Source: Cyanobacteria bacterium SIG26
GTDB taxonomy: Bacteria; Cyanobacteriota; Vampirovibrionia; Gastranaerophilales; Gastranaerophilaceae
NCBI GenBank assembly: GCA_015152555.1
Contig: SUTS01000008.1
Coordinates: forward strand, 8,779 to 72,778
DNA length: 64,000 nt
Direction of reading: 5' to 3'
Of this stretch, positions 222 to 30,036 are shown piece after piece. Both the position numbers and the translations under genes were made by a program. The notes under the pieces were generated by a model. It did no database searches. It saw only the letters and a list, made by a program, of their open reading frames with translations, and was not told the DNA's origin. Positions within the stretch are counted from its first letter, which is position 1. The number at the start of each line of letters is the position of its first letter.

Positions 222-424
222 ATTTTGATTATTTGGGGAGGGTTCTCACCCAGTGGGTTCGACTTCCTCCTTTGTATTTTAATGAGTAGTTTGCTTGGAA
301 ATAAAATCATAGAACAGTCATGCTGAACTTGTTTCAGCATCTTGCCAATTGAGCGTGTTTACTACATTCTGGTAAGACCCTGAAATAAATTCAGGGTGAC
401 AATTAGGTCGGAAGTTTGCATTTT

Positions 425-13372: not shown

Positions 13373-15568
13373 TTACCCGCCAAAACCTAGTGTTAATGCT
13401 GTTTTAATTAATTTTTTAATTGTTCGTTTTGTTTGTTTTTCATCTTGGTGTTCAACTACACTATCAAAAAGTTCTTTATATTTGTTTTGTGATCGTGCTA
13501 CTTTTTTATTATAAACTTCTTGATATTTTTCGAAATTTTTTTCTTTATTTTCTAGTTTTGATAATATAGTTTGTCTGGTTTTTGTTTCTCCTGCTCGATA
13601 TGAAACATATTCGACGCCATCTTTTAAATAATTGTTTATCTTTAGATATTCGTCAGATAAGTTTTTGATATTTTTATCTAAGTATTTTTCTTTAATATAT
13701 GTATGATTATTTAATAATGCTGTTGCGTATTCTTTAATTTTTTCAAGAAAATGGCCTGACGTAAACATTTGAACGAAAGTTCCAACCAGTGGTATTTTTG
13801 AACCTTTAGGATTCTTTTTTCGTAAGGCTTGGAGTTTTTCAGACACATCAATTCTATAATTTTTTAGAATTACATCAATTGATCTGTATGCGTTCAATAC
13901 TTTTTCTTCTTCTTTTTTTAGTTCTTTATACGCCATCGTAATTCCTGTATCAAGATCTGATGCAGAAGCAATGATTTCATCAATTTTTTTTGTTGTAAGT
14001 TTGATTTTTTGATCTAATACCTTTTTGTTATAATCTGGAACAAAATCCTCGGGGTTTCTGATATCAAAGCCAGTAAATGTTACTTGTTTTGCATTTTTTG
14101 CGGCTTTTTTATACCAGCTATTGTATTTTTCATATAGTTCAAAACAATCTGCTACAGTTTTGTTATTAGGTGTTTTTGAATCTTGTATACCTCGTTCGGT
14201 TAATGCTGTAACCATTTTTTTATTACCTAATAATGCGTAGTGTTGTATTGGAGTATAACCTTTTGTATTGATTATCGCTGTGTTTGGCTTATATTTTAGT
14301 ATTTCGTCTATTTGTTTTGAGTCTGAGAGATAAAACATTGCAGAATTCCCAAGCTTATCCGTTTTATTAGGGTTTGCTCCTGCTTCTAAAAGCATTGAAA
14401 AATATTCAAAATCATTCTTTTTAAGAGAGTTTATTAAGTAATTTCTGTAATTAGGATCTGCTCCACCATGTAATAAAAATGCTCTTATATTATTATTTTG
14501 AGCGTAATCTAGCGGAACGTAATCTTTATTATCTTTAATATTACAATCTGCGCCTGCCGTTACAAATAAGGCTACAATATTCAAATTATTAGCCTTGACA
14601 GTATTATGTAAAAGGGTACTTCCTGTTGGTAATACCACATCAGGGTTTGCTTTATTATCTAGTAACAAGCCAATTAATTTGGCTGTTCTTGCATATGCTA
14701 ATGGTGGCAACTTTTTCTTATCTATAGCATTTACATCTGCACCTTTTTGCAATAAATATTTTGAATTTTCAAAATTTCCATTGTTTATATTTTGATGTAA
14801 AGGAGTTGTCCCCTTTTTATCTTGAAGATTTATTTCTGCGCCATTATCAACAATCCATTTTAACGTAGGTAATGTACTTGCATTATAAATTGCAGTACGA
14901 CCGTTTTTATCTTTATAATTTACTCCGACATCATATTTTTTTAAAATCTCTGCTATTTCTAAATTGTTTTCTCCAATGGCACGATGCAAGTGGGTCGTAT
15001 ATTTGTCTACATTTGTGTTTGGATTAACCCCATGCTCTAAATATGCTTCTAACGTTTTGGGAAAATTGTAAACCATTGCATAAGGACTATTACCAATACA
15101 ATCTTCGATATAAGGGGAAGCACCTTTTTCAAGTAACATTGATGTAATAACTGGTTTATCTACAACCTTATGAAGTGCAGTTTGTTCCAAATCATCAACA
15201 CTGTTCACATCAAGGTTTTTATGTTTTAAATATTCTTCAATAATCCGTTTGTTTCCTCTTGAACAAGCTAATACAAATGGAGATTTACCATGTTTGTTCT
15301 TTTGGTTTGGATTAAAGTCTTTATCCAAAAGATATTTTGTGATTTCAAACTGATTATATCTAGCCGCAGAATGCAACAAAGTCTCTTGTTTGTCATTCAC
15401 AAGATTTAAATTATTTATTTGTGAAACTTCGTCAATTTTACCTTCTTTAATCAGTTGTTCAATATCTGAAAAAAGCATGGTTCGAGCTGAAAAAGTGGTT
15501 TCCTGTTTTTTATTAAAGTATGTGTAATTGTTTCTATTTACCCCTAAATAGATTGGTGAGACCCGCAT
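13373..15568 (-). CDS. Ankyrin-repeat protein with FKG-type leader
   Basis: The protein has 731 residues. The N terminus starts MRVSPIYLG and reaches TTFSA at 24-28, matching the leader of its neighbours. About 12-13 ankyrin repeats follow (about 60-460), with clear units such as TLLHSAARYNQ, TPLHQNINNGN and TALHKV. The C-terminal 250 residues are a charged helical, coiled-coil-rich region. Ankyrin solenoids bind proteins; in host-associated bacteria they are common in effectors, but no secretion signal is visible. GGGGT precedes the ATG. It is the first gene of the leftward unit and is divergent from the AAA+ operon across 149 bp. Confidence 0.88.
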   Translation of the reverse strand: MRVSPIYLGVNRNNYTYFNKKQETTFSARTMLFSDIEQLIKEGKIDEVSQINNLNLVNDKQETLLHSAARYNQFEITKYLLDKDFNPNQKNKHGKSPFVLACSRGNKRIIEEYLKHKNLDVNSVDDLEQTALHKVVDKPVITSMLLEKGASPYIEDCIGNSPYAMVYNFPKTLEAYLEHGVNPNTNVDKYTTHLHRAIGENNLEIAEILKKYDVGVNYKDKNGRTAIYNASTLPTLKWIVDNGAEINLQDKKGTTPLHQNINNGNFENSKYLLQKGADVNAIDKKKLPPLAYARTAKLIGLLLDNKANPDVVLPTGSTLLHNTVKANNLNIVALFVTAGADCNIKDNKDYVPLDYAQNNNIRAFLLHGGADPNYRNYLINSLKKNDFEYFSMLLEAGANPNKTDKLGNSAMFYLSDSKQIDEILKYKPNTAIINTKGYTPIQHYALLGNKKMVTALTERGIQDSKTPNNKTVADCFELYEKYNSWYKKAAKNAKQVTFTGFDIRNPEDFVPDYNKKVLDQKIKLTTKKIDEIIASASDLDTGITMAYKELKKEEEKVLNAYRSIDVILKNYRIDVSEKLQALRKKNPKGSKIPLVGTFVQMFTSGHFLEKIKEYATALLNNHTYIKEKYLDKNIKNLSDEYLKINNYLKDGVEYVSYRAGETKTRQTILSKLENKEKNFEKYQEVYNKKVARSQNKYKELFDSVVEHQDEKQTKRTIKKLIKTALTLGFGG

Positions 15569-15717
15569 GTTTTACCCCGTTTTTGCTTATTATAAATACA
15601 AAAATAATTATTTTGACCATTTTTTCTTAAAATATTAAGAAATATAACAAAAGATTTATAAAAAAGTAGCAAAATTTTTTTTTACCTGTTTTAATAACAA
15701 AAAAACTAGGAGGGTAT
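15569..15717. promoter_or_regulatory. Divergent promoter region of the six-gene locus
   Basis: These 149 AT-rich bases separate the start codons of the ankyrin and AAA+ genes. On the minus strand TATAAT lies at 15594-15589. On the plus strand TTGACC at 15613-15618 is a possible -35 box with no strong -10 box. AGGAGGG precedes the rightward ATG. Shared control of both operons is plausible. Confidence 0.45.
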
Positions 15718-17097
15718 ATGTTTATACAAGCGGTTAATTTTGCGACACCGTCATATGGTGCTACAGCTATACAACAAAGAAGGTCTCAATTAAATTATTC
15801 TGTTACTAATTCTGCATTATCTTTCAAAGGGGATAATATACCTAAGATTCCGGAATTTGATTATGAAGCAGTGAAACAAAAAGAATTGGATAAAAGAACC
15901 AAGATAGAAAAACTTTGCTCTTGGGGCAAAACGGCGGCTGAAGAACGAGCTAAGCAACAATTAATAGGTTTTCATACTAGTGTACAGTCACTTATCTTAC
16001 AAAAAGAACAAACCATACAAGCTCACAAAAAAGTTCTTCAAGAAAAAGAGAAAGCTGTTGCAGCATTAAAAGATGCAAAAAGATTATTAGAAGAAAAGTT
16101 AAAAGATGCTGAAGCTAATCACGAAAAAGATATAGTAATTATTGAACTTAGAGCTGAATTAGAGGCTACGAAAAAACTAGAAGCTCAAAAAACTAATGAT
16201 CTTGCGCTTGATAAAGCTAAATTTGAAAGAATAAAACAAGAACAAGAAAACATAAGTCGTCGTGATAAAGATAAAGGTTGGAATAAGGTTGCCGGTTATG
16301 AAAACTTAAAACAAGAAATAGAGGAAGGTTTTTTAAATAAATTTGCAATTGAAAAAGCTGGAGATGATGTTGTTATGCCAAATGGTATACTTCTTTATGG
16401 TCCATCTGGAACCGGTAAAACTTATTTTGCCAACGCTTTAGCTGAACAGGCAAAATGTCATTTTGAGAAAATTGATACATTACAAGATGATGATGATATT
16501 ATTGCTGATCTTCGCAAAACATTAAGAAATGCGAAAAAGAATTACAATCAAGATAATAAAAGAACGATTGTATTACTTGATGATTTTAATTCAATTGCGG
16601 AATTAACAGATGAGGATAAAGCTGAATTAGCTCAAGATGGTATGGATATTTCTTATACAAATGTCGGTCAGCTTTCTAATATATTGCAAAATTGCGCTGA
16701 TAAATTTAAAACAACGATTTTAATGACAACTAATTTCCCAAGAAGAATAGATAAAGAGGTAATGACTGCTAATAACATACCTCATCAAATCTTCTTAGGT
16801 CCACCACAAACTGAAGATCTTGCAGCAATGTTTGAATACCATTTAGATGGTGTTACTGACCAAGATATTGATTATGAAAAATTAGCAAAAGTCGTAAGCA
16901 AAGCGCAAGAAGACAATGAGGCTTATAGCGCTCAAGGGGTTGTAAATATTATCAATAAAGCTAAAGCAAATTGTCCAAATTCTAAAATAACTGAACCAGA
17001 TTTGCTAAAAGCAATTAAGCAAACTCCGCCAGATATAACAAAGGCGCAGTATGCGAAATTTATTGATGATTTAGATGCGATTGTTAATAAAAATTAA
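15718..17097 (+). CDS. AAA+ ATPase with coiled coil and FKG leader
   Basis: The protein has 459 residues. The leader ends in LSFKG (34-38). A long coiled coil (about 70-190) follows, then one AAA+ module of the FtsH/ATAD3 type. Walker A is GPSGTGKT (228-235), Walker B is IVLLDDF with D288-D289, and sensor 1 is N339 in MTTNF. Two Arg (342-343) follow in NFPRRID; the helical lid domain runs to the end. No protease domain or membrane segment is present. It should form an ATP-driven hexamer that remodels proteins. AGGAGGG sets the start. It begins a rightward operon with two genes, 23 bp and then 1 bp apart, the last of which encodes a degenerate copy of this ATPase. Confidence 0.88.
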   Translation: MFIQAVNFATPSYGATAIQQRRSQLNYSVTNSALSFKGDNIPKIPEFDYEAVKQKELDKRTKIEKLCSWGKTAAEERAKQQLIGFHTSVQSLILQKEQTIQAHKKVLQEKEKAVAALKDAKRLLEEKLKDAEANHEKDIVIIELRAELEATKKLEAQKTNDLALDKAKFERIKQEQENISRRDKDKGWNKVAGYENLKQEIEEGFLNKFAIEKAGDDVVMPNGILLYGPSGTGKTYFANALAEQAKCHFEKIDTLQDDDDIIADLRKTLRNAKKNYNQDNKRTIVLLDDFNSIAELTDEDKAELAQDGMDISYTNVGQLSNILQNCADKFKTTILMTTNFPRRIDKEVMTANNIPHQIFLGPPQTEDLAAMFEYHLDGVTDQDIDYEKLAKVVSKAQEDNEAYSAQGVVNIINKAKANCPNSKITEPDLLKAIKQTPPDITKAQYAKFIDDLDAIVNKN

Positions 17098-17120
17098 AAA
17101 AGAATTTAATGGGGTTAAAT

Positions 17121-18821
17121 ATGAATATTAAAACTAACAACTTTTTGCAAGTAACAAATCCAAATATAAGAACAAATGTTTCAAATCCTGCGTTTGTGGG
17201 TATTTTTTCAAAAAATAAAGATGCTAATGTTGATTCAAAAAAAGACGTAAAAAAAGATGAGTTTGTAAAAAAAGCGCCTAAAGAAATTTCTGTAAAACAA
17301 AAAATTTTGTATGGTGTTGCTGCTGCGGGAACAACAGTAGCGGGTATATTCGGAATAAAGAAACTTAAATCTCCAAAAAATATAGATACAGATGGATTAA
17401 AAAAAGCAGGGCAAAAACTTAAACCTATAGTCGAAGGTACAACAACGGCTAAACCAAAATCTGTGGATGTTGATTCTAAAAATCCTGTGGTTGAACCAAA
17501 TCCGAAAACTCCGCAGACTCCAAAGTCTGAAGCTCAGCAACCAAAACCTGAAGATACGCCTAGAAAAACAGACGTTGAATCGGTAAAACCTGAAGTACAG
17601 ACTCCAAAACCTCCAAAAGTAAAAGAAGTTCCAATGACTTTAGATGAGGTTTTTGAAAAATATCCGCCAAGAAATTACGATTTGGCTCAGGAGATTTATC
17701 CTGTGTTGCACAAAAATGCTGAAACTTTAGGTCTTAAACCTGAACATTACGAAGAAATTTTATCAAATATAAACAAAAATAATAAAGAGTTTATGAAAAC
17801 TGAAGGTTTTGATTTAATCGCAAGTAATATGCCTAAATTACGTGATATTTTAACCGAGTCAGAGGCTAATAAAGAAATTGGTTCGATTGTTTCGAGTCTG
17901 GATGTTGAAAATAAAAATGTTTTTGCAAGGGTATTAAACGATCCGGAAACTTTTAAAGTTGATTTCGTTGAAGATCTGGTTACTTATTTAAAATTTTTAA
18001 GACCAAAGAATGAAAAATATACCTTTGAAAAAGCTTTGCCATTGTTAGAAAAATATGAAAAAGATTTAAGATTGGTTGATGCTGAACGTTTTTCTTTGGC
18101 TTTAAATAGTATGAATGCCGATATTGAAGACATTGTACCTCTATTAGCAAAAGAGAACTCGTTCCCTAATTTAAAAAAATATCGTATGTTAATGAATACA
18201 ACAAAAAATAATAAAGAATGTCTAATTCCGTTGATTCAAAATATGGCTAAATTTGGTTTGGATTCTGAAAATGCCGCGGTTACTTTAAAACATTTAAATA
18301 ATTTCCAAAAAAAATCTATTATTGCAGTTGCAGATAATATTGCGAAGTTAGATGAATTAAAACTCGATAAGCTTGATGTTTTAACAAGATTAAATACAGA
18401 GGATTCTTCTAAAATTTTCAATCGTATTATAAATAATGCCGGAAAATATAAACTAAAAGAAGCTTCAGATGTTTCATATTTTGTTGAAAAATTTGAGGGC
18501 AAAGATTTAGATTTTATTGAAAATGATGTTTTACCTAAACTGAAAGAATATGCTGAACCGTTAAGGATTAAGTATGCAGAAGATATTGCAGAAATTGCAG
18601 GTAATCTTACTCCAAAAACGCTTGATAATGTCGAAATAGTTGCTCAATATGCACAGAAGTATGGAAATAATGTCAATTACATTGCTTTATTGGGTGGCTT
18701 GACAGAAGATAATGCTAAAAATCTTACAAAAGTTTTGGATAATATTGAAAGAACCGGACTTTGGGATGATGTGTTGGTTTGTAGTGAAGATTTCAAATAT
18801 TTGTTAGATAAAGGGTTATAA
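17121..18821 (+). CDS. Membrane-anchored helical-repeat protein of unknown function
   Basis: The protein has 566 residues. The leader reaches PAFVG at 23-27. One hydrophobic segment (about 60-78, ILYGVAAAGTTVAGIFGI) could be a membrane anchor. A Pro/Lys/Glu-rich flexible linker follows (about 100-170). The remaining 390 residues look all-helical, with repeated blocks resembling a HEAT-like solenoid. I do not recognise a family. An ATG at 17109 is in frame, but GGGG sits six bases before the ATG at 17121, so I prefer the latter. It is encoded between the intact and degenerate AAA+ genes, so it may be their adaptor or membrane anchor. Confidence 0.75.
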   Translation: MNIKTNNFLQVTNPNIRTNVSNPAFVGIFSKNKDANVDSKKDVKKDEFVKKAPKEISVKQKILYGVAAAGTTVAGIFGIKKLKSPKNIDTDGLKKAGQKLKPIVEGTTTAKPKSVDVDSKNPVVEPNPKTPQTPKSEAQQPKPEDTPRKTDVESVKPEVQTPKPPKVKEVPMTLDEVFEKYPPRNYDLAQEIYPVLHKNAETLGLKPEHYEEILSNINKNNKEFMKTEGFDLIASNMPKLRDILTESEANKEIGSIVSSLDVENKNVFARVLNDPETFKVDFVEDLVTYLKFLRPKNEKYTFEKALPLLEKYEKDLRLVDAERFSLALNSMNADIEDIVPLLAKENSFPNLKKYRMLMNTTKNNKECLIPLIQNMAKFGLDSENAAVTLKHLNNFQKKSIIAVADNIAKLDELKLDKLDVLTRLNTEDSSKIFNRIINNAGKYKLKEASDVSYFVEKFEGKDLDFIENDVLPKLKEYAEPLRIKYAEDIAEIAGNLTPKTLDNVEIVAQYAQKYGNNVNYIALLGGLTEDNAKNLTKVLDNIERTGLWDDVLVCSEDFKYLLDKGL

Positions 18822-18822
18822 T

Positions 18823-20082
18823 ATGCGAATTTCACCAATAGTAAATTTTTCATACACTAAATGTAATCACAACAATAATGTTCCACAAAAAAGAAATGCT
18901 CAGGTTAGTTTCAAAGGGGAGCCAAATGAGACTAATATAGAGTCGTTTCTTGCTCTAGCGTTCAAGAAATTTTTCGAAAAATGTGAAGATGCTATGATTG
19001 ATGGAGTTGCCAGGAGATATATGTTTGTAAAAAACTATGAGAATTTATTATTAAAAGAATTTCCAGATGATTATGAATATCGACAGGAATTAAGTCGTCG
19101 TATAAAGCGTATGGAATCGGAATTCAAAGATAAAGATATTAAAATTAATGGGCTGGTAAATAAAATAGATGATTTAGGTACAGAAATTGAAAATATTAAT
19201 ACAGAAAATTCCGGTATAAAAGAGTCTATTAACAACACTAATTTAAAAAATTCTTTTGAAAATCAACGAGCAAAGATAGTTTTGCGAGATGTTCAACGTC
19301 AAAAGAAAATATATGATGCACTTGATGAACAGTATCTTGCGCTTAGCCGTTTAGAGAATAAAGTTTATCCTAATGGGATTATGATAAAGGGAACACAATC
19401 TCAAGAAGAGATTGAAAAAACTCTTAAATATTTGCAAGATAAAGGGTGTCTATTACTTCGAACAAGTTTTAGTAAAAATGATCAAAAACAAGCTGCAAAA
19501 GAGATGGTTGGCCTATTAAAACGAATTAGAGAAGGTGATAAGCACGGGATTTTATATATAGAAGATTTTAGGGAACATACGGTACCTAGCGAAAAAAATA
19601 GGCGCTTTATAGATAAGTTAAAAGCGCATTTGTGTTCTTGTTCAAAGGATTCTAATGCAACGATTTTGATTTTTGAAAATAATCCGCAAGATATTGATGA
19701 AATTTTATTGAAGGAGCATCGTTTTGGGACCAAAATAGATGTTTCAGATATAAAACATGTTTTTGAACCGGGATTTGTGCCAAAGAAAGACGGGTATACA
19801 TTTTATTATGGGCAAAATGAAAATGATACTGTAGATTTGTATCTCGGAAATTTTGGTCATAATAGAGAGATTTTGTGGGTAGATGAGCCGGATCAGGATA
19901 AGGCCTTAAAGGTGCTTGAAAACATTGATTTAGTTAAATCTCAAGAAAAATTTAAGGATATAAAATATTTACAGATGAGAAAGCCAGTGAAAGTATATAA
20001 AATCTATGAAGATTTTTACACATTAAATCATAAGACAGCGGATTATCATCCAATAATTGAGAAAAAACTTAATATTAAATAA
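18823..20082 (+). CDS. Degenerate AAA+ ATPase paralogue with FKG leader
   Basis: The protein has 419 residues. The leader starts MRISPI and ends VSFKG (28-32). A coiled coil occupies about 75-180. Then the AAA+ order of the gene two upstream recurs: PNGIMIKG aligns with PNGILLYG, but the P-loop is replaced by GTQSQEEIEK (190-199) with no GKT. The Walker B-like ILYIEDF keeps E247-D248, and TILIFENNPQDID aligns with sensor 1 (TILMTTNFPRRID). So nucleotide binding is probably lost while the fold remains. It is probably a structural partner of the intact ATPase. It starts one base after the upstream stop codon, indicating coupled translation. Confidence 0.78.
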   Translation: MRISPIVNFSYTKCNHNNNVPQKRNAQVSFKGEPNETNIESFLALAFKKFFEKCEDAMIDGVARRYMFVKNYENLLLKEFPDDYEYRQELSRRIKRMESEFKDKDIKINGLVNKIDDLGTEIENINTENSGIKESINNTNLKNSFENQRAKIVLRDVQRQKKIYDALDEQYLALSRLENKVYPNGIMIKGTQSQEEIEKTLKYLQDKGCLLLRTSFSKNDQKQAAKEMVGLLKRIREGDKHGILYIEDFREHTVPSEKNRRFIDKLKAHLCSCSKDSNATILIFENNPQDIDEILLKEHRFGTKIDVSDIKHVFEPGFVPKKDGYTFYYGQNENDTVDLYLGNFGHNREILWVDEPDQDKALKVLENIDLVKSQEKFKDIKYLQMRKPVKVYKIYEDFYTLNHKTADYHPIIEKKLNIK

Positions 20083-20207
20083 AACAACAAAACAAACCTG
20101 TTATAGATGATAATACTGACCCTTTCAAGTCTTTATTAAAACAAATTGTGGATGTATTTTGACACTCGGTTTGAGAAGAAAGAATAGTAGGTTTGATAAT
20201 CAGAAAT

Positions 20208-20263
20208 TGTAGGTCAAGCTTTGCTTGACATTATTTTTTTGTCAGGCGTTGCCTGACCTACAA
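20208..20263. repeat. Nested inverted repeat (GTAGGTCA type)
   Basis: TTGTAGGTCAAGCTTTGCTTGAC is followed after a T-rich spacer by an inverted counterpart ending GACCTACAA. Each arm is itself a small hairpin. Related GTAGGTTGGG..CCCAAC units occur at 701-717, 20811 and 22653. It may be a non-autonomous repeat, and may also terminate the flanking convergent genes. Confidence 0.6.
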
Positions 20264-20272
20264 ACTTGCTTA

Positions 20273-20737
20273 CTAATATTGTGGCATTTTTTTAAAATAC
20301 GACAAAAAAGTTTCTTTCTTGTATTTTATATTTCTAAGTTTTTTAGCAATATAAAATACAGAATCATCAGTGCAGGGATGTTTATCTACCATGTGATAAG
20401 TTGTTGGTGGCAAAAAGAGATTCCTTATTCGTTCAAAAATATTTTTTGGAGCTGGCTTAGAATCTAACCAAATCCTCGCCCCTTGATGACGTTCAATCAT
20501 AACTCTTGCTTTAACATCATTTTCTATAAAAAAATTATCAACTTTTGCTAAATCCCTTAATTCTTTTATTACAGTTTTTTCTAAAAACGAACAAGGTACT
20601 TCTTGAAAGGGTGCAAATTTGCATCTAACTACTTTTCTTAATCCCTTAAAACTTTGGTTATTTTGGGGTTCGTAATTATTATATGTTTTTATAGGCTTTT
20701 TAGTATATATATTATTGTTTATTGGCTGTGCTTGCAT
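20273..20737 (-). CDS. Small unknown protein with FKG leader
   Basis: The protein has 154 residues. The leader starts MQAQPI, is rich in Asn, Tyr and Lys, and ends QSFKG at 28-32. The rest is a compact, basic, mixed alpha/beta-looking domain with several Cys and His (RCKFAPFQEVPC; HMVDKHPC) that I do not recognise. There is no signal peptide. A longer in-frame start exists at 20785, but AAAGGA lies eight bases before the ATG at 20737 and the extra 16 residues are hydrophobic promoter-like sequence, so 20737 is the better start. It is convergent with the degenerate AAA+ gene. Confidence 0.72.
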   Translation of the reverse strand: MQAQPINNNIYTKKPIKTYNNYEPQNNQSFKGLRKVVRCKFAPFQEVPCSFLEKTVIKELRDLAKVDNFFIENDVKARVMIERHQGARIWLDSKPAPKNIFERIRNLFLPPTTYHMVDKHPCTDDSVFYIAKKLRNIKYKKETFLSYFKKMPQY

Positions 20738-20810
20738 AATAAGATCCTTTTTAATAATTATAATATAAAAAATAAAAAATCCCAAATTGAACTTTCTATG
20801 GACTTAGTTA

Positions 20811-21066
20811 GTAGGTTGGGTGAAACCCAAACAAAAATAATTTTTCAATATTCCCCAAAAAGTACTTTTGTTACCCTCGCCCCTTCTGGGAGCGACCTAT
20901 GAGCAGAGTGCGGAGTGCTTTTGCCGAAGATAGTAAATCTGAAGGCAAAACACGTAGGCACGTTTAATGCGAATAGGTCAAGACAGAGGGTGCCCAAAGG
21001 GCGGGTGAGGGGTTTATAAAAATGGAAAACAAAATTCATTAAAAAACGTTTTCATCCAGTTTGAAA
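20811..21066 (+). repeat. 254-bp direct repeat, left copy
   Basis: This is nearly identical to 22653-22906 in the same orientation. It begins GTAGGTTG, contains CTCGCCCCTTCTGGGAGCGACC, and ends ATCCAGTTTGAAA. A 64-codon reverse frame through it recurs almost unchanged in the other copy, which reflects the repeat and not a gene. Together the copies bracket one zincin gene. Confidence 0.88.
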
Positions 21067-21181
21067 TTTATTATTTAACTCACTTTCATTCCCCGAAACC
21101 TAGCTAGATTACCACACTTCGCTCGCAATGACAAAAAAGACTTCTGCCCAACTATTTACTAATGCACAATAGTCAACGTTA

Positions 21182-22402
21182 TTATGGTATAATTTTGCCA
21201 CCTAGTCGTTGGTATAATTCCATAACTTCATCGGATAATTTGTTGCCGCTAGCTAGTTCTGCAAACACTTCTGCAACAAATTCCCCAGGAGATGTTGATG
21301 CATAATCGGAAACCGAACAAGCAGTACCGAAATCCTTTTTGTTATCGCCCCAGGCTTTTATCTTTTCAAAGAAACTTACATTTCCTGTGAGGGCTTCATC
21401 ATCATTTCTAACCTTGTCATTAAGGTGCCCGATTTCGTGGAAGATTGTCCTGAACGGTGATTGTTCATTATGTTTCATTTTGTAACCAGATTCTCTAATA
21501 AAGATTTTTTTCATTGTTTCTACAAATCTTGGGTCAGCTTGAGTGTATAAATCTTTATCCAAATCGATTTCAAATAGGTTCAAAAAGTTGTATTTGTTAT
21601 TGTTTTCTCCGTACAAAAGTCCTTTATCAATAAGTTTTTGTTTGGCTTCAGGGTTGTTCATTATTTCTTGAATAAATCTTGCTGGGCTTTGTAATTTTTC
21701 GTTTTCAAATGCTCTGATTTCGTCAAATAATTGGATTTTGTCTTCAAGATTTGTCAATTTGCCTTCTTTATATTTTTGCATAAGTTCTTTTAGCCTTTTT
21801 GTTGTTTTTTCGTCAAAAAGTTCATAATCTCTATCGTTTATGAATGCTTTATTTTTTAATATATTATCAATATTTTCAAAAAAGCTTTTATTTATTCCAA
21901 GCCAAGAGTCATATTTAATGCCATTATGTCGAACCCTTGCCATTACACTCTTTTCTGCTTCGATATATTCAATAGTTTTAGGAATTTTTGCTTTTCCTTT
22001 GAATTTGTTGCTAATTTTAGTCAAACCTTCGTTAATCCAGTTGATGGTATCAAGGTCTTTATCTGTGAAATTTTTGTATTTTTTTATGCCAAGATGTTTG
22101 CGCCCAAACTCAATAGCTTCTTCAAGTGAGTTTGCTCTTGTGAAATCAATATGTTCAGCTAGTTGAACGGCTTTAGAGAATTTACCTTTTAAAATCAGTA
22201 AGGCTGCGGTGCCGATAGCTCCAAGTACACCTAAAAATATGCCCCATTTTGTTTTCTTAGTTAATTTTGGTTGTTTTGTAGAAATTTCAACGCTATCATT
22301 TCCAAAATCTTTAGCTTTCTCAGGTTTTGAAAACTTCTGGGGTTTTTGAAGTTGCTGTGTTGAGATATTGTGGGGTACATTTTGGACCTGAATTTCTACC
22401 AT
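21182..22402 (-). CDS. Membrane-anchored zincin metallopeptidase
   Basis: The protein has 406 residues. A polar N terminus of about 50 residues is followed by one membrane segment (53-72, WGIFLGVLGAIGTAALLIL) and a soluble domain. The zinc motif HEIGH is at 322-326 in RTIFHEIGHLND. EFVAEVFAE (374-382) is the probable third-ligand helix. The family resembles short gluzincin-type or Mlc-titration-factor-like peptidases only in motif layout, so I give no name. It has no FKG motif. It sits alone between two direct repeats, 1.84 kb apart, that could excise it by recombination. Confidence 0.75.
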   Translation of the reverse strand: MVEIQVQNVPHNISTQQLQKPQKFSKPEKAKDFGNDSVEISTKQPKLTKKTKWGIFLGVLGAIGTAALLILKGKFSKAVQLAEHIDFTRANSLEEAIEFGRKHLGIKKYKNFTDKDLDTINWINEGLTKISNKFKGKAKIPKTIEYIEAEKSVMARVRHNGIKYDSWLGINKSFFENIDNILKNKAFINDRDYELFDEKTTKRLKELMQKYKEGKLTNLEDKIQLFDEIRAFENEKLQSPARFIQEIMNNPEAKQKLIDKGLLYGENNNKYNFLNLFEIDLDKDLYTQADPRFVETMKKIFIRESGYKMKHNEQSPFRTIFHEIGHLNDKVRNDDEALTGNVSFFEKIKAWGDNKKDFGTACSVSDYASTSPGEFVAEVFAELASGNKLSDEVMELYQRLGGKIIP

Positions 22403-22621
22403 ATATTTACCTAAAAATTCTTTCTACACTTATATAAAACACATTTTTTATACTTTTTGTCACCTTTGAAGTATTAATTTTACAAAAATTCACGTACATT
22501 CAAAATTTCAGATAAAAAGTGGGAGGACTTCTTTTTTTTATATCTTGTTCTGGTGAAAATATTGTGACAATGGTTGTCGAAAAATCGATAGAAAACAAGT
22601 AGAATTAGGTAAATGTACTAG

Positions 22622-22660
22622 ATTATTCTAACTCGTCAAAGAATTTCAGTCCGTAGGTTG
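22622..22660 (+). repeat. 39-bp direct repeat, left copy
   Basis: The stretch starting ATTATTCTAACTCGTCAAAG and ending CCGTAGGTTG is identical at 24421-24459. Confidence 0.8.
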
Positions 22661-22906
22661 TTGAAACCCAAACAAATATAATTTTTCAATATTCCCAAAA
22701 AGTACTTTTGTTATCCTCGCCCCTTCTGGGAGCGACCTATGAGCAGAGTGCGGAGTGCTTTTGCCGAAGATAGTAAATCTGAAGGCAAAACACGTAGGCA
22801 CGTTTAATGCGAATAGGTCAAGACAGAGGGTGCCCAAAGGGCGGGTGAGGGATTTATAAAAATGGAAAACAAAGTCCATTAAAAAACGTTTTTATCCAGT
22901 TTGAAA
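22653..22906 (+). repeat. 254-bp direct repeat, right copy
   Basis: This is the second copy of 20811-21066, offset by about 1840 bp, with a few substitutions and short indels (for example GTTGGGTGAAACCC against GTTGTTGAAACCC). The remainder of 22403-23068 holds no gene; CACTCGCTTTAAGAAGAAAGAAC near 22967 is another piece shared with 20163. Confidence 0.88.
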
Positions 22907-23068
22907 CTTGATTATCAACCAACTTCCAACCGCCAAGATTCAGTATTGTTGGGCTGATGTAAATAAACACTCGCTTTAAGAAGAAAGAACAGTGAGTTTG
23001 ATAAATTTTGTCGGGTTTCACTCAACCTACGGGTTTGTATTGAGAAAAATTAACATGGGATTTGAGAA

Positions 23069-24055
23069 TTATCTTATTTTTTGCCAAATTAGTGGCAATT
23101 TACAATTGTTTTCTTTGTTTAAACCAGATACAATATTATTATAGATAGGTTTAAATTTACCTTGTTTGTTTAATGCTTCAAATAGCAAATGTTTAGATGA
23201 ATATCGTAAATTTCGTACTGGATCAAACAGTATTGTTTCTTCTTCAGGTATTGATTTATCTGCAATAAATAGATGTTCTTGTAAATGATTTCCCAAAACT
23301 AATATTCCGCCTACCTCTAATTTGTTATAAATTTTATTGTTTATTAAATCATTTAAAACTTCTTGTTTATTTAAATTTAAATCAGGCTTCTCCCCATATC
23401 CGATAATGCCAGTTAAATCATTCTTTATTACATGATAAAAAGCATTTCTAAAAAATATAGCACCAACTTTACCATTGTGAGAATTTAATTCAATATTTTT
23501 AATATTATTAATATCATCTTTAACAAAATGAATATTATTATTTATTGTATATTTCGGAATAAAATATTTTTGCGGGAATAACTCAACATCATCGAAAGCT
23601 AAACAATAAACAGAATCGGTTACATTATCTATTTCTTCATTAGGTTTAGGTATTTCAGTAAAATGTTTATAAAATTTTTTAGTTAATTGTTCTTGTTTTT
23701 TATTCTTAACATCATTTATTAAAAAACCATCAGACATTTGAGGATGAACAGCATAAACACCTCTTTGGGCATAATTTATAGCTTCTGAACAAGGATCAAT
23801 TGAGTAAATTTGATAATTGTTTTTATTTTTCAAAAATGTATTTAAGGATAATGCTTCTTCTCCATTTGAACCTGCATAGACCATTATATTAGTACCTTCA
23901 GGAAAAGTCCTATTAATAATTTGAGCCGATTTTTCTAAAACAGGATGGTCTAAATAAAAAGCAGTACTTGTTGACAGTCCAGTTTCTTTATCAAGTTTAT
24001 TATAACTAGAAAAACTAATCATATTATGGTTTAGATTTATATTATTAATTCTCAT
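23069..24055 (-). CDS. CheR-like SAM methyltransferase with FKG-type leader
   Basis: The protein has 328 residues. The fold is that of the CheR catalytic domain. YAGSNGEEALSL (about 60-71) is the SAM-binding glycine loop followed by the Glu-Glu seen in CheR. IYSIDPCSEAINYAQRGVY matches its second motif. VGAIFFRNAFYHVI corresponds to the CheR Asn-containing motif. The N-terminal CheR helical domain is missing and no chemotaxis gene is nearby, so receptor methylation should not be assumed. The first residues (MRINNINLN..MISFSS) resemble the leader of the other proteins in this region. It stands alone between two repeat-rich gaps. Confidence 0.75.
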   Translation of the reverse strand: MRINNINLNHNMISFSSYNKLDKETGLSTSTAFYLDHPVLEKSAQIINRTFPEGTNIMVYAGSNGEEALSLNTFLKNKNNYQIYSIDPCSEAINYAQRGVYAVHPQMSDGFLINDVKNKKQEQLTKKFYKHFTEIPKPNEEIDNVTDSVYCLAFDDVELFPQKYFIPKYTINNNIHFVKDDINNIKNIELNSHNGKVGAIFFRNAFYHVIKNDLTGIIGYGEKPDLNLNKQEVLNDLINNKIYNKLEVGGILVLGNHLQEHLFIADKSIPEEETILFDPVRNLRYSSKHLLFEALNKQGKFKPIYNNIVSGLNKENNCKLPLIWQKIR

Positions 24056-24420: not shown

Positions 24421-24459
24421 ATTATTCTAACTCGTCAAAGAATTTCAGTCCGTAGGTTG
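24421..24459 (+). repeat. 39-bp direct repeat, right copy
   Basis: Identical to 22622-22660. A second shared piece, CTTCCAACCGCCA(A/T)GATT, lies at 24334 and 22923. Confidence 0.8.
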
Positions 24460-24957
24460 TGTCTATACCCAGTGGGTTTGACCATTTTTAACACGGCGTT
24501 TGACTAATAGGAACGAGGAAAGCCGAACCCGTCTATTTAATTGTCACTCATCTTGAACTACTTCCAAGATTTGAAAATTGCTTAATTGAATAAATCATTT
24601 TTTGTATTTTTATTCTAACTCTTTTAATTAAAGATTTCAAGCCTTTTAGGGCGGGGAAAGTTCCCCAATTTTGAAATGCTTATCTTGTTTATAATTGACC
24701 GTTAATTTTCAATATTTGCTTATCAAATATCCTTGATTTTTCGTTGCTTATTGGGGAAAAGTTGCAAAAATAAGTTTGTAAAATAAAATAAAATTTTTAA
24801 ATTAGAAAAAATGTAATATTATAACAATATTTCATTTGAAAAAATGTAAAATTTTAAAAAAACTCCATCAAAAAAATGTCATCTTCTTGTATGATTTTTG
24901 CCCAAAACCTATTTACATGCAACATTAAGAAATGTTAAGATGGATTAGAGAGGGTAG

Positions 24958-26273: not shown

Positions 26274-28340
26274 ATGGCAAGAAAGAAATATGAAGTATCA
26301 GAAGAAATTTTGCAAAGAGGTATATTAACTAATCCTGATAAAATTGGTAAATATACTTATTATAATATTGGTAATACAATGATAGGAGCTTTAAGGGATA
26401 ATAATTTAATACCCAATAAAGATTATAAAAATGAAGATAGAAAGCCTGATGGACTAATTGTAGATAATACTAAAAGAGTAATCGCTGTAATCGAAAATAA
26501 AAATCTTGCTAAGTATAAAACAGCGAGTTTAAAAGCTTCTGCAACAAAACAAGCTCTTGAAGTTGCTCAAGATCTAGGAGCAAAATTTGTAATTAGTACG
26601 GATAGTGTTAATAGTCAATGGTATAGTGCGTTTGATAATAAACCAATATTAAATATTGATGGAAGTGAATTAAAAGAAGTTTTTGGGATTACAACATGCA
26701 ACACACCTAAAACTGAAAAACTAATTGAACTATTAGATAATACTATAAACAAAAAATGTAGACAAATAACGCAAATACAGGAGGTTGACCCAACTCCATT
26801 AGCATATGCTATATGGCAAAAAATATATAAAGCAACAACAGCTACTCCTGAAAATTGCTTATATACATTTGTTGAAATTTTTATATTTAAGTATTTAAGC
26901 GACTTAAATATACTTGATGAATTGTATCAGTACAATACATTATTGGGAATGTATAAAAAATCAAAAGAAGATAATGTTTTATCATATTATGCTAAAACAA
27001 TAAGACCTGAAATTAAAAAATTATTCCCAGAAGATGATGATAAAACAACAATTATAAATGGAACAATTTTTGTAAATGATACAACAGGTGATTGTTATAC
27101 TGGTTATGGCAAAACTTTTCGCACCATCTTAGAAATGTTTAAAGATGTCGAATTAAAAAATATTGATAAGGATTTTAAATCAAAAATATTTGAAGTATTT
27201 TTCAAAAAAGATACTCAAAAAGGTGGTTTGGGACAATATTTTACACCGCTCAAAGTCGTACAACAAATTGTGAATATGGCAGATATAAAGCCAAACATGA
27301 GAATTTGCGACCCTGCATGTGGTGTAGGAAAATTCTTGTTAGACGCTATTTCAAGAGATATTAATAGATTTTATGAAATTAAAGATGACGAGATAATAAA
27401 TCATATAACAATTGAAGGTTTTGATAAAGGTTTTACAAAAGATAGTGAGAGAACTATTATTCTTGCAAAAGCAAACATGATGATATATTTTTCAGATTTA
27501 ATAAAAAATCATCCTGATATGACTCAAAAATTTTCAAAATTATTTAATAAATCTTTTCACCTTAGAACATCCGTATTAGGTACACTTGATTATATTCCAA
27601 CGGAAAAACAAAAATACGATTTAATACTTTCTAATCCGCCATATGTTGGTGCTACAGACGTTTATAAAAAAGAAATTGACGGTAATGCAAAATTAAAAAA
27701 ATATTATAATAAAAATGGAACTGGCTTAGAAAGTTTATTCATTGAATGGATAATAAGAAGTCTTAAAGATGATGGGCAAGCATTTATAATTGTACCTGAA
27801 GGCTTTATGTATAGACTTCAAGATGTAGATTTAAGACAATTTATAATAGATGAATGTATTATAAATGGGATTATTTCTTTACCCAAAAACACTTTTTTCT
27901 CTACAGAGAAGAAAACTTATATTATTGCTTTAACTAAGAAAAAGCAATCTGAAAAAGTTCGTCAGATTTCACCTATATTTACTTATTTATGTTCATCTAC
28001 CGGCGAAACATTAGATGTTAACCGATTTGATACACAAGAAAATGATTTAGCTGATGCAGCATATGAGTACCATAGTTTTAAGGGTAATAAATCTTTGTAT
28101 GCTGAAAGATTGGGTAATGGTAAAATAGAAAATAAAAGACTTAAAGTTGTTAATATTGATTGGTTTGAAACCAATATTAAAGTAGATTGGATAATTGAAA
28201 ATTTATGGACTGAAGACGAAAAAATAGAGCTCGGAATAAAAGACGAAGATAATATCATGACATCTGAGGAATTATGCATATTTATTGATAATGTTATTGC
28301 GGACTTATCTTCATATAAAGAGGCTGTAAATAATGTGTAA
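26274..28340 (+). CDS. Fused nuclease/N6-adenine methyltransferase (type IIB/IIG-like RM subunit)
   Basis: The protein has 688 residues. The N-terminal 130 residues look like an HsdR_N/PD-(D/E)xK endonuclease: P58-D59 in RKPDGLIVD, then E74-N-K76. A helical connector leads to an HsdM-like methylase. This has GQYFTP (about 335), motif I DPACGVGKF (346-354) and the catalytic NPPY (454-457). A single chain with cutting and methylating domains plus a separate specificity gene matches BcgI-type systems. No hsdR gene is present. The following gene overlaps by eight bases. DNA base composition is even more AT-rich than the surroundings, which agrees with horizontal transfer. Confidence 0.86.
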   Translation: MARKKYEVSEEILQRGILTNPDKIGKYTYYNIGNTMIGALRDNNLIPNKDYKNEDRKPDGLIVDNTKRVIAVIENKNLAKYKTASLKASATKQALEVAQDLGAKFVISTDSVNSQWYSAFDNKPILNIDGSELKEVFGITTCNTPKTEKLIELLDNTINKKCRQITQIQEVDPTPLAYAIWQKIYKATTATPENCLYTFVEIFIFKYLSDLNILDELYQYNTLLGMYKKSKEDNVLSYYAKTIRPEIKKLFPEDDDKTTIINGTIFVNDTTGDCYTGYGKTFRTILEMFKDVELKNIDKDFKSKIFEVFFKKDTQKGGLGQYFTPLKVVQQIVNMADIKPNMRICDPACGVGKFLLDAISRDINRFYEIKDDEIINHITIEGFDKGFTKDSERTIILAKANMMIYFSDLIKNHPDMTQKFSKLFNKSFHLRTSVLGTLDYIPTEKQKYDLILSNPPYVGATDVYKKEIDGNAKLKKYYNKNGTGLESLFIEWIIRSLKDDGQAFIIVPEGFMYRLQDVDLRQFIIDECIINGIISLPKNTFFSTEKKTYIIALTKKKQSEKVRQISPIFTYLCSSTGETLDVNRFDTQENDLADAAYEYHSFKGNKSLYAERLGNGKIENKRLKVVNIDWFETNIKVDWIIENLWTEDEKIELGIKDEDNIMTSEELCIFIDNVIADLSSYKEAVNNV

Positions 28341-29454
28341 AAATGTAGTAATAAAATCAATAAAAGAAATATTTAATCATAAGAGAGGCAATAGCAAATA
28401 CACAAAAGCATATTGCGATAAGTGCAAAGGTGAATATGAGGTATACACAGGTACAACTATTGGAACTTTTGCTAAAATTAATAAATATGATTATGATTAC
28501 CCACTGCTAACATATACTACTGATGGTTATGCTGGAGAATTGTCTGTTATCGAAGGTAAATTCTCTATTGGTGGACATAGAGCAATTTTAATACCAAAGG
28601 ACAAAAATATAAATTTACAGTATTTTAGATATGTATTACAACCATTATTTAGAAATGCAAAACGGGATTGTGCTATACCTACAATTAATTGGCAATTAAT
28701 AAGGGATATAAAAGTTGAAATTCCAATAGATAAAAATGGCAATTACGATTATGATTTTCAAGAAAAAATTGCCCAACGTTATAAAATAATTGAAAAAGAA
28801 AAAAACAAATTAGTTTATGATAAGAATATTTTAAAAAAAAGTCAATTATCGATAAATATTGAAAATTATGAATATAATTTGTTGAAAGTTAAAGAAATAT
28901 TTGATTTAAGTATTTCCACAAATAGTTCAAAATTCACAATCGGCTTTATTAATGAAAATCAAGGAGACATTCCTGTTTATGGTGCTGTAAATACTGAAAA
29001 TTATGCAAGTTATGGATATGTAAAAGACAATATATTTATCGAAGAAAATAAAAATGGCAAAATCACAAAAACTCCAGTTAGATATTTTGAAAATTGCCTT
29101 ACGTATAATATAGATGGAGAAGGTGCATGTGGATATGTATTTTACCGAACAGGTCGATTTAGTCTTTCAGAAAAAGTCCGCCCATTAATCATATTTGATG
29201 AATATAAAGATAAATTAGATCCTATATACTTGAAATATGTACTCCATCCTTTATTTTTATCGAAAGTCAGAGGAAGAAAAATAAACAAAACAATAATTCA
29301 GGATTTGCCAATCCCTATACCTGTAAAGGAAAATGGCGAATTTGATTTGAAAGCACAAAAAGAAATTTCTGAAAAATATAAGAAACTAGAAGCTATTAAA
29401 GAAAAGGTTATCAATGAAATTGATAAAGTTTTAAGTATAACAGTAGAAATTTAA
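28333..29454 (+). CDS. RM specificity subunit with two target-recognition domains
   Basis: The protein has 373 residues. Two half-repeats each hold a target-recognition domain followed by a helical spacer. Half 1 covers about 1-175 and half 2 about 185-373. Both show a KxIF start, a Thr-x-Gly/Ala-x-x-Gly-tyrosine core, YFRYVLQPLF or YLKYVLHPLF, and a final EKIAQRYK or KEISEKYK helix. This is HsdS architecture and gives a bipartite recognition site. The length suits the small S subunits of BcgI-like enzymes (about 340) as well as type I. Translation is coupled to the methyltransferase by an eight-base overlap. Confidence 0.9.
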   Translation: MCKNVVIKSIKEIFNHKRGNSKYTKAYCDKCKGEYEVYTGTTIGTFAKINKYDYDYPLLTYTTDGYAGELSVIEGKFSIGGHRAILIPKDKNINLQYFRYVLQPLFRNAKRDCAIPTINWQLIRDIKVEIPIDKNGNYDYDFQEKIAQRYKIIEKEKNKLVYDKNILKKSQLSINIENYEYNLLKVKEIFDLSISTNSSKFTIGFINENQGDIPVYGAVNTENYASYGYVKDNIFIEENKNGKITKTPVRYFENCLTYNIDGEGACGYVFYRTGRFSLSEKVRPLIIFDEYKDKLDPIYLKYVLHPLFLSKVRGRKINKTIIQDLPIPIPVKENGEFDLKAQKEISEKYKKLEAIKEKVINEIDKVLSITVEI

Positions 29455-29888: not shown

Positions 29889-29910
29889 TGGGTTCGAAAC
29901 CCCTCCGACG
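29889..29910 (+). other. T-arm-like tRNA remnant
   Basis: TGGGTTCGAAACCCCTCCGACG looks like the T arm and 3' acceptor strand of a tRNA. No matching 5' half is found upstream. It might be an attachment-site remnant at the edge of the RM island. Confidence 0.3.
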
Positions 29911-29944: not shown

Positions 29945-29949
29945 AATGG

Positions 29950-30036
29950 AGGAGGAGGTGGGATTCGAACCCACGGTACGCTCGCACGTACGACGGTTTT
30001 CAAGACCGCTCCGATCAACCGCTCTGGCACTCCTCC
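29950..30036 (-). tRNA. tRNA-Ser (UGA)
   Basis: The cloverleaf has a GGAGGAG/CTCCTCC acceptor stem. The anticodon loop reads CTTGAAA with anticodon TGA. A long variable arm (GTACGTGCGAGCGTAC region) is typical of class II tRNA-Ser, and the T loop is TTCGAAT. The base after the acceptor stem is T rather than the usual G73 of bacterial tRNA-Ser. It is followed by CCA at 29949-29947, which may be encoded or chance. Confidence 0.93.

Follow-up and report, generated by a model that had tools for sequence, protein, structure and literature searches.

A possible gene cassette between two copies of a tRNA-associated, palindromic DNA element in a Gastranaerophilales genome

In the window, that is, the whole stretch of 64,000 nucleotides that was analysed, a putative metalloprotease gene lies between two copies of a composite repeat, and each copy contains an imperfect palindrome belonging to a structured element family that is spread over the order and is usually found behind tRNA or tmRNA genes. 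This tRNA-associated element, missed in the initial annotation, is the more informative part of the repeat. We suggest that the gene may be a cassette held between two folded-DNA recombination-like sites, one in each repeat copy, a reading that falls a little short of what we would call probable.

Table 1. Features of the repeat pair, the enclosed gene and the remnant half-units in the window
Feature	Position	Strand	Basis or remark
Repeat copy A (composite)	20811..21066	+	BLAST, sequence reading
Repeat copy B (composite)	22653..22906	+	96% identical to A
Inner structured element of copy A, GCGACC...CAAGACA	20892..20985	+	Comparison with insert-free copy; covariance-model match 20887-20989, 107 bits
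Inner structured element of copy B	22732..22825	+	Identical to that of A; covariance-model match 22727-22829
Left arm of interrupted CCCTC..GAGGG hairpin, copy A	20874..20891	+	
Right arm of interrupted CCCTC..GAGGG hairpin, copy A	20986..21011	+	
Left arm of CCCTC..GAGGG hairpin, copy B	22714..22731	+	
Right arm of CCCTC..GAGGG hairpin, copy B	22826..22851	+	
REP-like left module of copy A, GTAG and palindrome GTTGGGTGAAACCCAA	20811..20830	+	Copy B counterpart 22653-22671
Putative zinc metalloprotease, 406 aa, HEIGH and ASTSPGEFVAEVFAE motifs	21182..22402	-	Cargo
Remnant left half-unit GGGTTCTCACCCAGTGGGTTCGA downstream of tRNA-Met (117-188)	235..262	+	By eye
Remnant left half-unit downstream of tRNA-Ser (29947-30036)	29889..29910	-	By eye

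The initial annotation had described nearly identical direct repeats around a single gene, and whole-genome BLAST bore out the two same-strand copies (E 5.6e-117), whose spacing, measured start-to-start between copies A and B, is the 1840 bp that had been given. The metalloprotease gene is the sole ORF of at least 80 aa wholly inside, barring a 108-aa ORF antisense within it. The genome-wide count of copies that had been proposed was run and showed that the full repeat is rare, with three copies and not dozens. Global alignment of copies A and B revealed 16 differences in 279 columns, with all of them among the 142 columns outside 20875-21011 and none among the 137 columns within it, a boundary that was set after the data were seen; for the 103-bp interval of the covariance-model match, the comparison of differences inside and outside gave a Fisher p of 0.0007. 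The earlier suggestion that the copies are recent or homogenised thus holds for the central hairpin with its insert, which is identical in both, but not for the diverged flanks. This zero-difference centre indicates that either constraint on the hairpin and its insert or exchange between copies A and B has kept the two alike, and it favours the idea that the gene is a cassette. Recombination between the repeats that deletes or circularises the gene, as first put forward, is a fair hypothesis and agrees with what the sites of this family bracket elsewhere. The intergenic regions near copy B are mosaics of several repeat families, and a 40-bp stretch to the left of this copy (22622-22661) is repeated exactly 1.8 kb onward, at 24421-24460.

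Comparison of the copies showed that the inner 94-bp imperfect palindrome interrupts a hairpin, CCCTTCTGGGA^GAGGG. According to whole-genome BLAST, three genomic copies have the insert and both sides; two of these are adjacent and form the window pair, and the third (84%) is at G000:C3:32306-32523. One outer copy without the insert, in which the left third is fused directly to the right third, is located at G000:C3:143666-143827, and this difference between otherwise matching copies supports the cassette reading. The inner element alone occurs at three further places, behind tRNA-Asn (two genes) and tRNA-Leu, each time with a duplicate of the tRNA 3′ end after it. The modules of the outer repeat also occur singly elsewhere, and the GTAG and palindrome module that opens the left third resembles those called REP. 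The window copies carry neither a tRNA tail nor the first, small hairpin of the tRNA units; here, the insert lies in another stem-loop instead.

The product of the bracketed gene has one hydrophobic stretch near its N-terminus (by eye), and its HEIGH and downstream EFVAEVFAE motifs correspond to HELGH and EFVAEVFAE in a homolog with 52% identity, the best match outside its own genome. Homologs are present in 9 of the 46 genomes of the genus, its own included, so the gene is accessory and its relatives are patchy in the genus. No Pfam or NCBIfam model matched the 406-aa protein, the best match in a PDB search reached only E 0.19, and a search for viral homologs found none. In the same region (13373-24055), several predicted proteins have in common an N-terminal (S/T)F(K/S)G-like motif that is also present in proteins of relatives. 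Further on, at 26274-29454, Type I restriction-modification-like genes, which we take to encode a methylase (NPPY) and a specificity-like subunit, both named by motif, adjoin an AAA/DUF4143 ATPase.

Using a covariance model and strict filters, we found the family, imperfect palindromes of about 94-110 bp, in 158 of the order's 192 genomes, which cover 35 of 45 genera and include 13 genomes from five other families; within the genus, the model detected the element in 43 of 46 genomes. A first DNA search, with hits in none of 23 outside genomes, had pointed to a restriction to the genus, which the covariance model overturned. A scan for the sequence pattern across 84,980 species, each represented by one genome, identified at least 114 stretches with the element. 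Among the 80 matches listed, nearly all are titled Gastranaerophilales, Cyanobacteria, Melainabacteria or uncultured gut or rumen bacteria, and the few stray titles include one Bacteroidales and two Acinetobacter contigs. No prior description of the family was found in the literature as judged by titles and abstract openings, with few subscription journals covered.

The usual layout is a tRNA or tmRNA gene, the palindrome, and then the 3′ end of the RNA once more, split in the T-loop. In 115 loci, 73 of 122 pattern sites lie less than 250 bp behind a tRNA or tmRNA gene on the same strand, and 67 of these 73 duplicate at least 10 nt of its tail. We collected 130 distinct right ends over 282 loci, which were gathered by site and are therefore not a random sample of tRNAs. 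An upstream tRNA was present within 6 kb for 99 of them, and 87 of these 99 bear the tail of their own tRNA (at most two mismatches in 15), while 15 of the 31 others match some tRNA tail. Movement of cassettes between different tRNAs was sought through foreign tails and rejected, given that only one of the 12 mismatching tails equals that of another tRNA; with nearly every tail matching the local tRNA, there is little sign of transfer from one locus to another. The tRNA link, the duplication of the tail and the order-wide spread together support the idea of a cassette-bounding site. Other settings were also observed. A non-tRNA context, TTTTAAGACTTCACAGGTTCG .. AACCCAGGCAGTTTTAAGAG, recurs in L021, L135, L165, L175 and L194, and in L255, L249, L018, L074 and at 273-310 of the window, arrays or remnants often stop at another repeat, T(A/G)TTTTAATG..GTCCGTTTTGGTCGGAAG, as if at a right-border mark. 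A provirus unit with a tRNA-Val tail lies in a viral contig (L234, 1499-1603, minus strand) next to phage genes, which include a reverse-transcriptase-like protein of 386 aa (named by eye).

Successive sites also bracket genes at other loci. Six genomes were listed in full, and neighbouring sites on the same contig and strand were counted by eye: 10 of 15 pairs are spaced 185-216 bp apart and the other five 527-5,330 bp. The wider stretches described here were picked for their spacing and are examples, not a rate, and their proteins were named by eye unless stated otherwise. L272 has a Fic protein between sites with the same tail at both ends, in a stretch without a tRNA; L273 has a 201-aa membrane protein between same-tail sites at tRNA-His. 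At tRNA-Gln (L276), three sites delimit two single-gene stretches, and only the first two tails agree, while at tRNA-Asp (L274), 6.7 kb with a toxin-antitoxin-like pair are enclosed and the tail is partial at the second site. Genes also lie between sites in L078 and L149, but with diverged tails; the RhuM-Fic protein of L149 is backed by Pfam. L275 and L277 were rejected as cassettes because the tails differ or no ORF of 80 aa lies between the sites. No integrase was recognised among the ORFs between sites in L078, L149, L272-L274 and L276, some of which were scanned for families and the rest assessed by eye. The window pair (1.84 kb, one antisense gene) resembles these stretches but stands off a tRNA.

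These loci bear on a rival account with an appreciable, if minor, chance of being correct, in which the window contains an ordinary mosaic of intergenic repeats: duplicated REP- or MITE-like clusters would flank the gene by chance, its loss would proceed by RecA-type recombination or slippage, and the inner element would have no part in it. The occurrence of the outer modules apart from each other, a homology much longer than the site, and the existence of just three full copies, two of them adjacent, are all consistent with such a mosaic. However, it leaves unexplained both the zero-difference centre and the bracketing of genes at tRNAs by the same element.

Evidence for gain and loss was obtained from the orthologous tRNA-Tyr gene, which has a match in 39 genomes; 30 of the loci were inspected visually. 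Thirteen contain full units, of which six have a different palindrome with the same ends; nine are empty, six have remnants cut inside the unit, one is ambiguous and one is at a contig edge. Both tRNA genes of the window, Met and Ser, also have remnants of this kind behind them. This presence and absence, along with the gene cassettes in L272, L273, L276 and L274, supports a cassette origin for the window arrangement. The possibility that remnant half-sites conceal long elements was also considered and rejected, given that the downstream stretches lack right halves with the tRNA tail: none was found in about 40 kb behind the remnants in G063, G023, G015 or at tRNA-Arg of G000, and past the known unit, 37.5 kb of G025 and 4.5 kb of G064 contain none either.

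The recombinases of the genome are one XerC-like, one XerD-like, one longer integrase and two small ones. The integron integrase IntI was not found in this genome (95.6% complete), where the best of five PF00589 proteins scored 163.5 bits on TIGR02249 (cut-off 265). The small tyrosine recombinase (179-182 aa) was discarded as a candidate, as it is absent from the site-rich G021, G017, G061 and G063 and occurs three times in the site-free G007. A Y1 transposase is not required either, being found in 8 of 14 site-bearing genomes, G000 included, and missing from the other six. In this comparison of the small integrase and the Y1 transposase across genomes, no recombinase tracked the sites. XerC/XerD-type recombinases are the first candidates, since they should be common to all hosts. 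The only Y1-transposase gene of its genome is at L296 (1360-1971, minus strand), behind tRNA-Leu; near it are a right half-site with a Leu-like tail, whose left part is interrupted by another palindrome, and a GTAGGGTGCAA..TTGCACC palindrome.

It is improbable, in our view, that the 94-bp palindrome is instead a miniature transposable element that enters hairpin loops, T-loops above all, by means of some transposase, with the tRNA arrays arising through later tandem duplication. Its clean insertion relative to the empty copy, its inverted-repeat ends and the near-identical copies at separate places of one genome (L004, L005, L008 and the window) are what such an element would leave, but no clear target duplication fits all the sites, the distribution of the Y1 transposase does not follow them, and the missing right halves behind remnants indicate that there is no long version.

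The folded structure of the element is supported by covariation. The alignment comprises 105 sites, drawn from a search of 93 of the 115 loci. In it, 91.6% of cells pair, and 636 are double-changed against 171 in shuffles; when the partner columns were slid by 1-3, at most 114 double changes were counted. This alignment was fitted to the covariance model and is biased towards it. G-T pairs make up 32 of 2,608 standard pairs (1.2%) in the sites and 126 of 1,599 (7.9%) in 74 tRNAs of the same loci, a rough comparison, as the two differ in G+C. We read this scarcity as a constraint on folded DNA and not on RNA, although template-switch repair of palindromes could also deplete G-T pairs. A smaller hairpin, GAGAACC..GGTTCGAG, precedes the palindrome and copies the 5′ half of the tRNA T-arm, and the duplicated tail tends to be complementary to the bases ahead of GAGAA: in the 84 of 124 sites that have the anchor (it is missing from the other 40), the mean complementary run is 4.48, compared with 3.21 (sd 0.09) for shuffled tails. 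DNA folding of the window site gave z values of −4.2 on the plus strand and −3.3 on the minus strand. Two tRNA units were folded as well: the values for the first were −2.8 and −2.2, and the second did not reach significance, with −1.2 on the plus strand. Reading the alignment and the tails, we derived a breakpoint consensus, CAAGAC^A(A/G)T. What the targets share is a stem-loop whose breakpoint follows GA close to the 3′ end of the loop: TTCGA^ for most tRNAs and TGGGA^ in the window. Covariation, G-T scarcity and tail complementarity thus argue for a folded site at the cassette ends. That the element is a structured RNA of tRNA transcripts (a processing element, a ribozyme or an intron-like insert), as the strong covariation, the conserved internal loops and the tRNA-sense orientation would allow, is very improbable in view of the G-T scarcity, a terminator-like hairpin between tRNA and unit (by eye), the absence of an Rfam family match and the location of the element also off tRNAs.

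In the mechanism that we propose, the palindrome, folded as single-stranded DNA, would be the recombination site, and an enzyme acting in trans would carry out site-specific recombination on the folded strand. A circle ending in a palindrome site would insert into the loop of a hairpin, at a point resembling GA^G. Usually this loop would be a tRNA T-loop, with the insert supplying an identical copy in place of the 3′ end of the tRNA gene; in the window, the loop of the CCCTC..GAGGG repeat hairpin would take its place. Successive sites would bound cassettes, mostly empty (185-216 bp) and some with genes, and the interval 20986-22825 would be one of the latter, at a secondary site away from tRNAs. 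If the two window sites recombined, the gene would be freed as a circle and one repeat would stay behind. Against a cassette stand the lack of a recombinase that tracks the sites, the almost exclusively local tails, the unconvincing L275 and L277, and the window copies without the first hairpin of the tRNA units. In addition, because homology extends well past the site on both sides in the window, general recombination would yield the same product.

Should the sites recombine, this large, uncultured order of animal-gut bacteria would own a gene-capture device over many tRNA genes per genome, which would help to account for the patchiness of cargo genes and for contigs that break at tRNAs, and would provide a second, independent case of folded-DNA recombination sites for comparison with integrons. 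Even without recombination, an order-wide structured element bound to tRNA T-loops calls for an explanation. A broader proposal, which we consider rather unlikely as a whole, is that this is an independently evolved, integron-like cassette-capture system, with T-loops as docking sites, two-hairpin DNA cassette ends, and a housekeeping Xer-type recombinase acting in trans to move toxins, Fic proteins, membrane proteins and the protease of the window.

Several known systems resemble parts of this arrangement. Tycheposons of marine cyanobacteria are tRNA-linked islands with cargo; the palindrome family is likewise tRNA-linked with cargo and has cyanobacteria-related hosts, but its units lack an integrase, occur in a gut lineage and have hairpin sites. 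REP/RAYT (TnpA-REP) and other bacterial MITEs are short palindromes scattered between genes, and the left module of the repeat, with its GTAG and palindrome, is similar to them. In contrast, the family is located at tRNA T-loops, duplicates the tail and has no dependence on a Y1 transposase within the same genome. Elements that target tRNA or tmRNA genes restore the 3′ end of the RNA and leave a second copy. The ssrA genomic islands of Dehalococcoides insert at such a gene (PMC3146451). The units of the family are likewise at tRNA or tmRNA genes with a second 3′ end at the distal end (a tail that the window copies lack); however, they are about 200 bp long, carry no integration genes, have a conserved two-hairpin structure and use many tRNAs.

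A further likeness is to integrons, whose attC sites are imperfect palindromes in which stems covary and unpaired bases are conserved (PMC2727003). The palindrome family fits this picture in its structure and covariation and forms arrays; its sites would lie behind each cassette, insertion would take place beside a fixed partner site, and successive sites bracket genes, both at 20986-22825 and at tRNA loci. The consensus of the integron core box is GTTRRRY/RYYYAAC. The family, in contrast, has a breakpoint in the tRNA T-loop, AAGAC^A(G/A), and no integron core box; its genome has no IntI and no attI beside an integrase, its cassette genes are often antisense, and its arrays occur at many tRNAs per genome. 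The palindrome system is therefore like integron attC in its logic, but it is not an integron.
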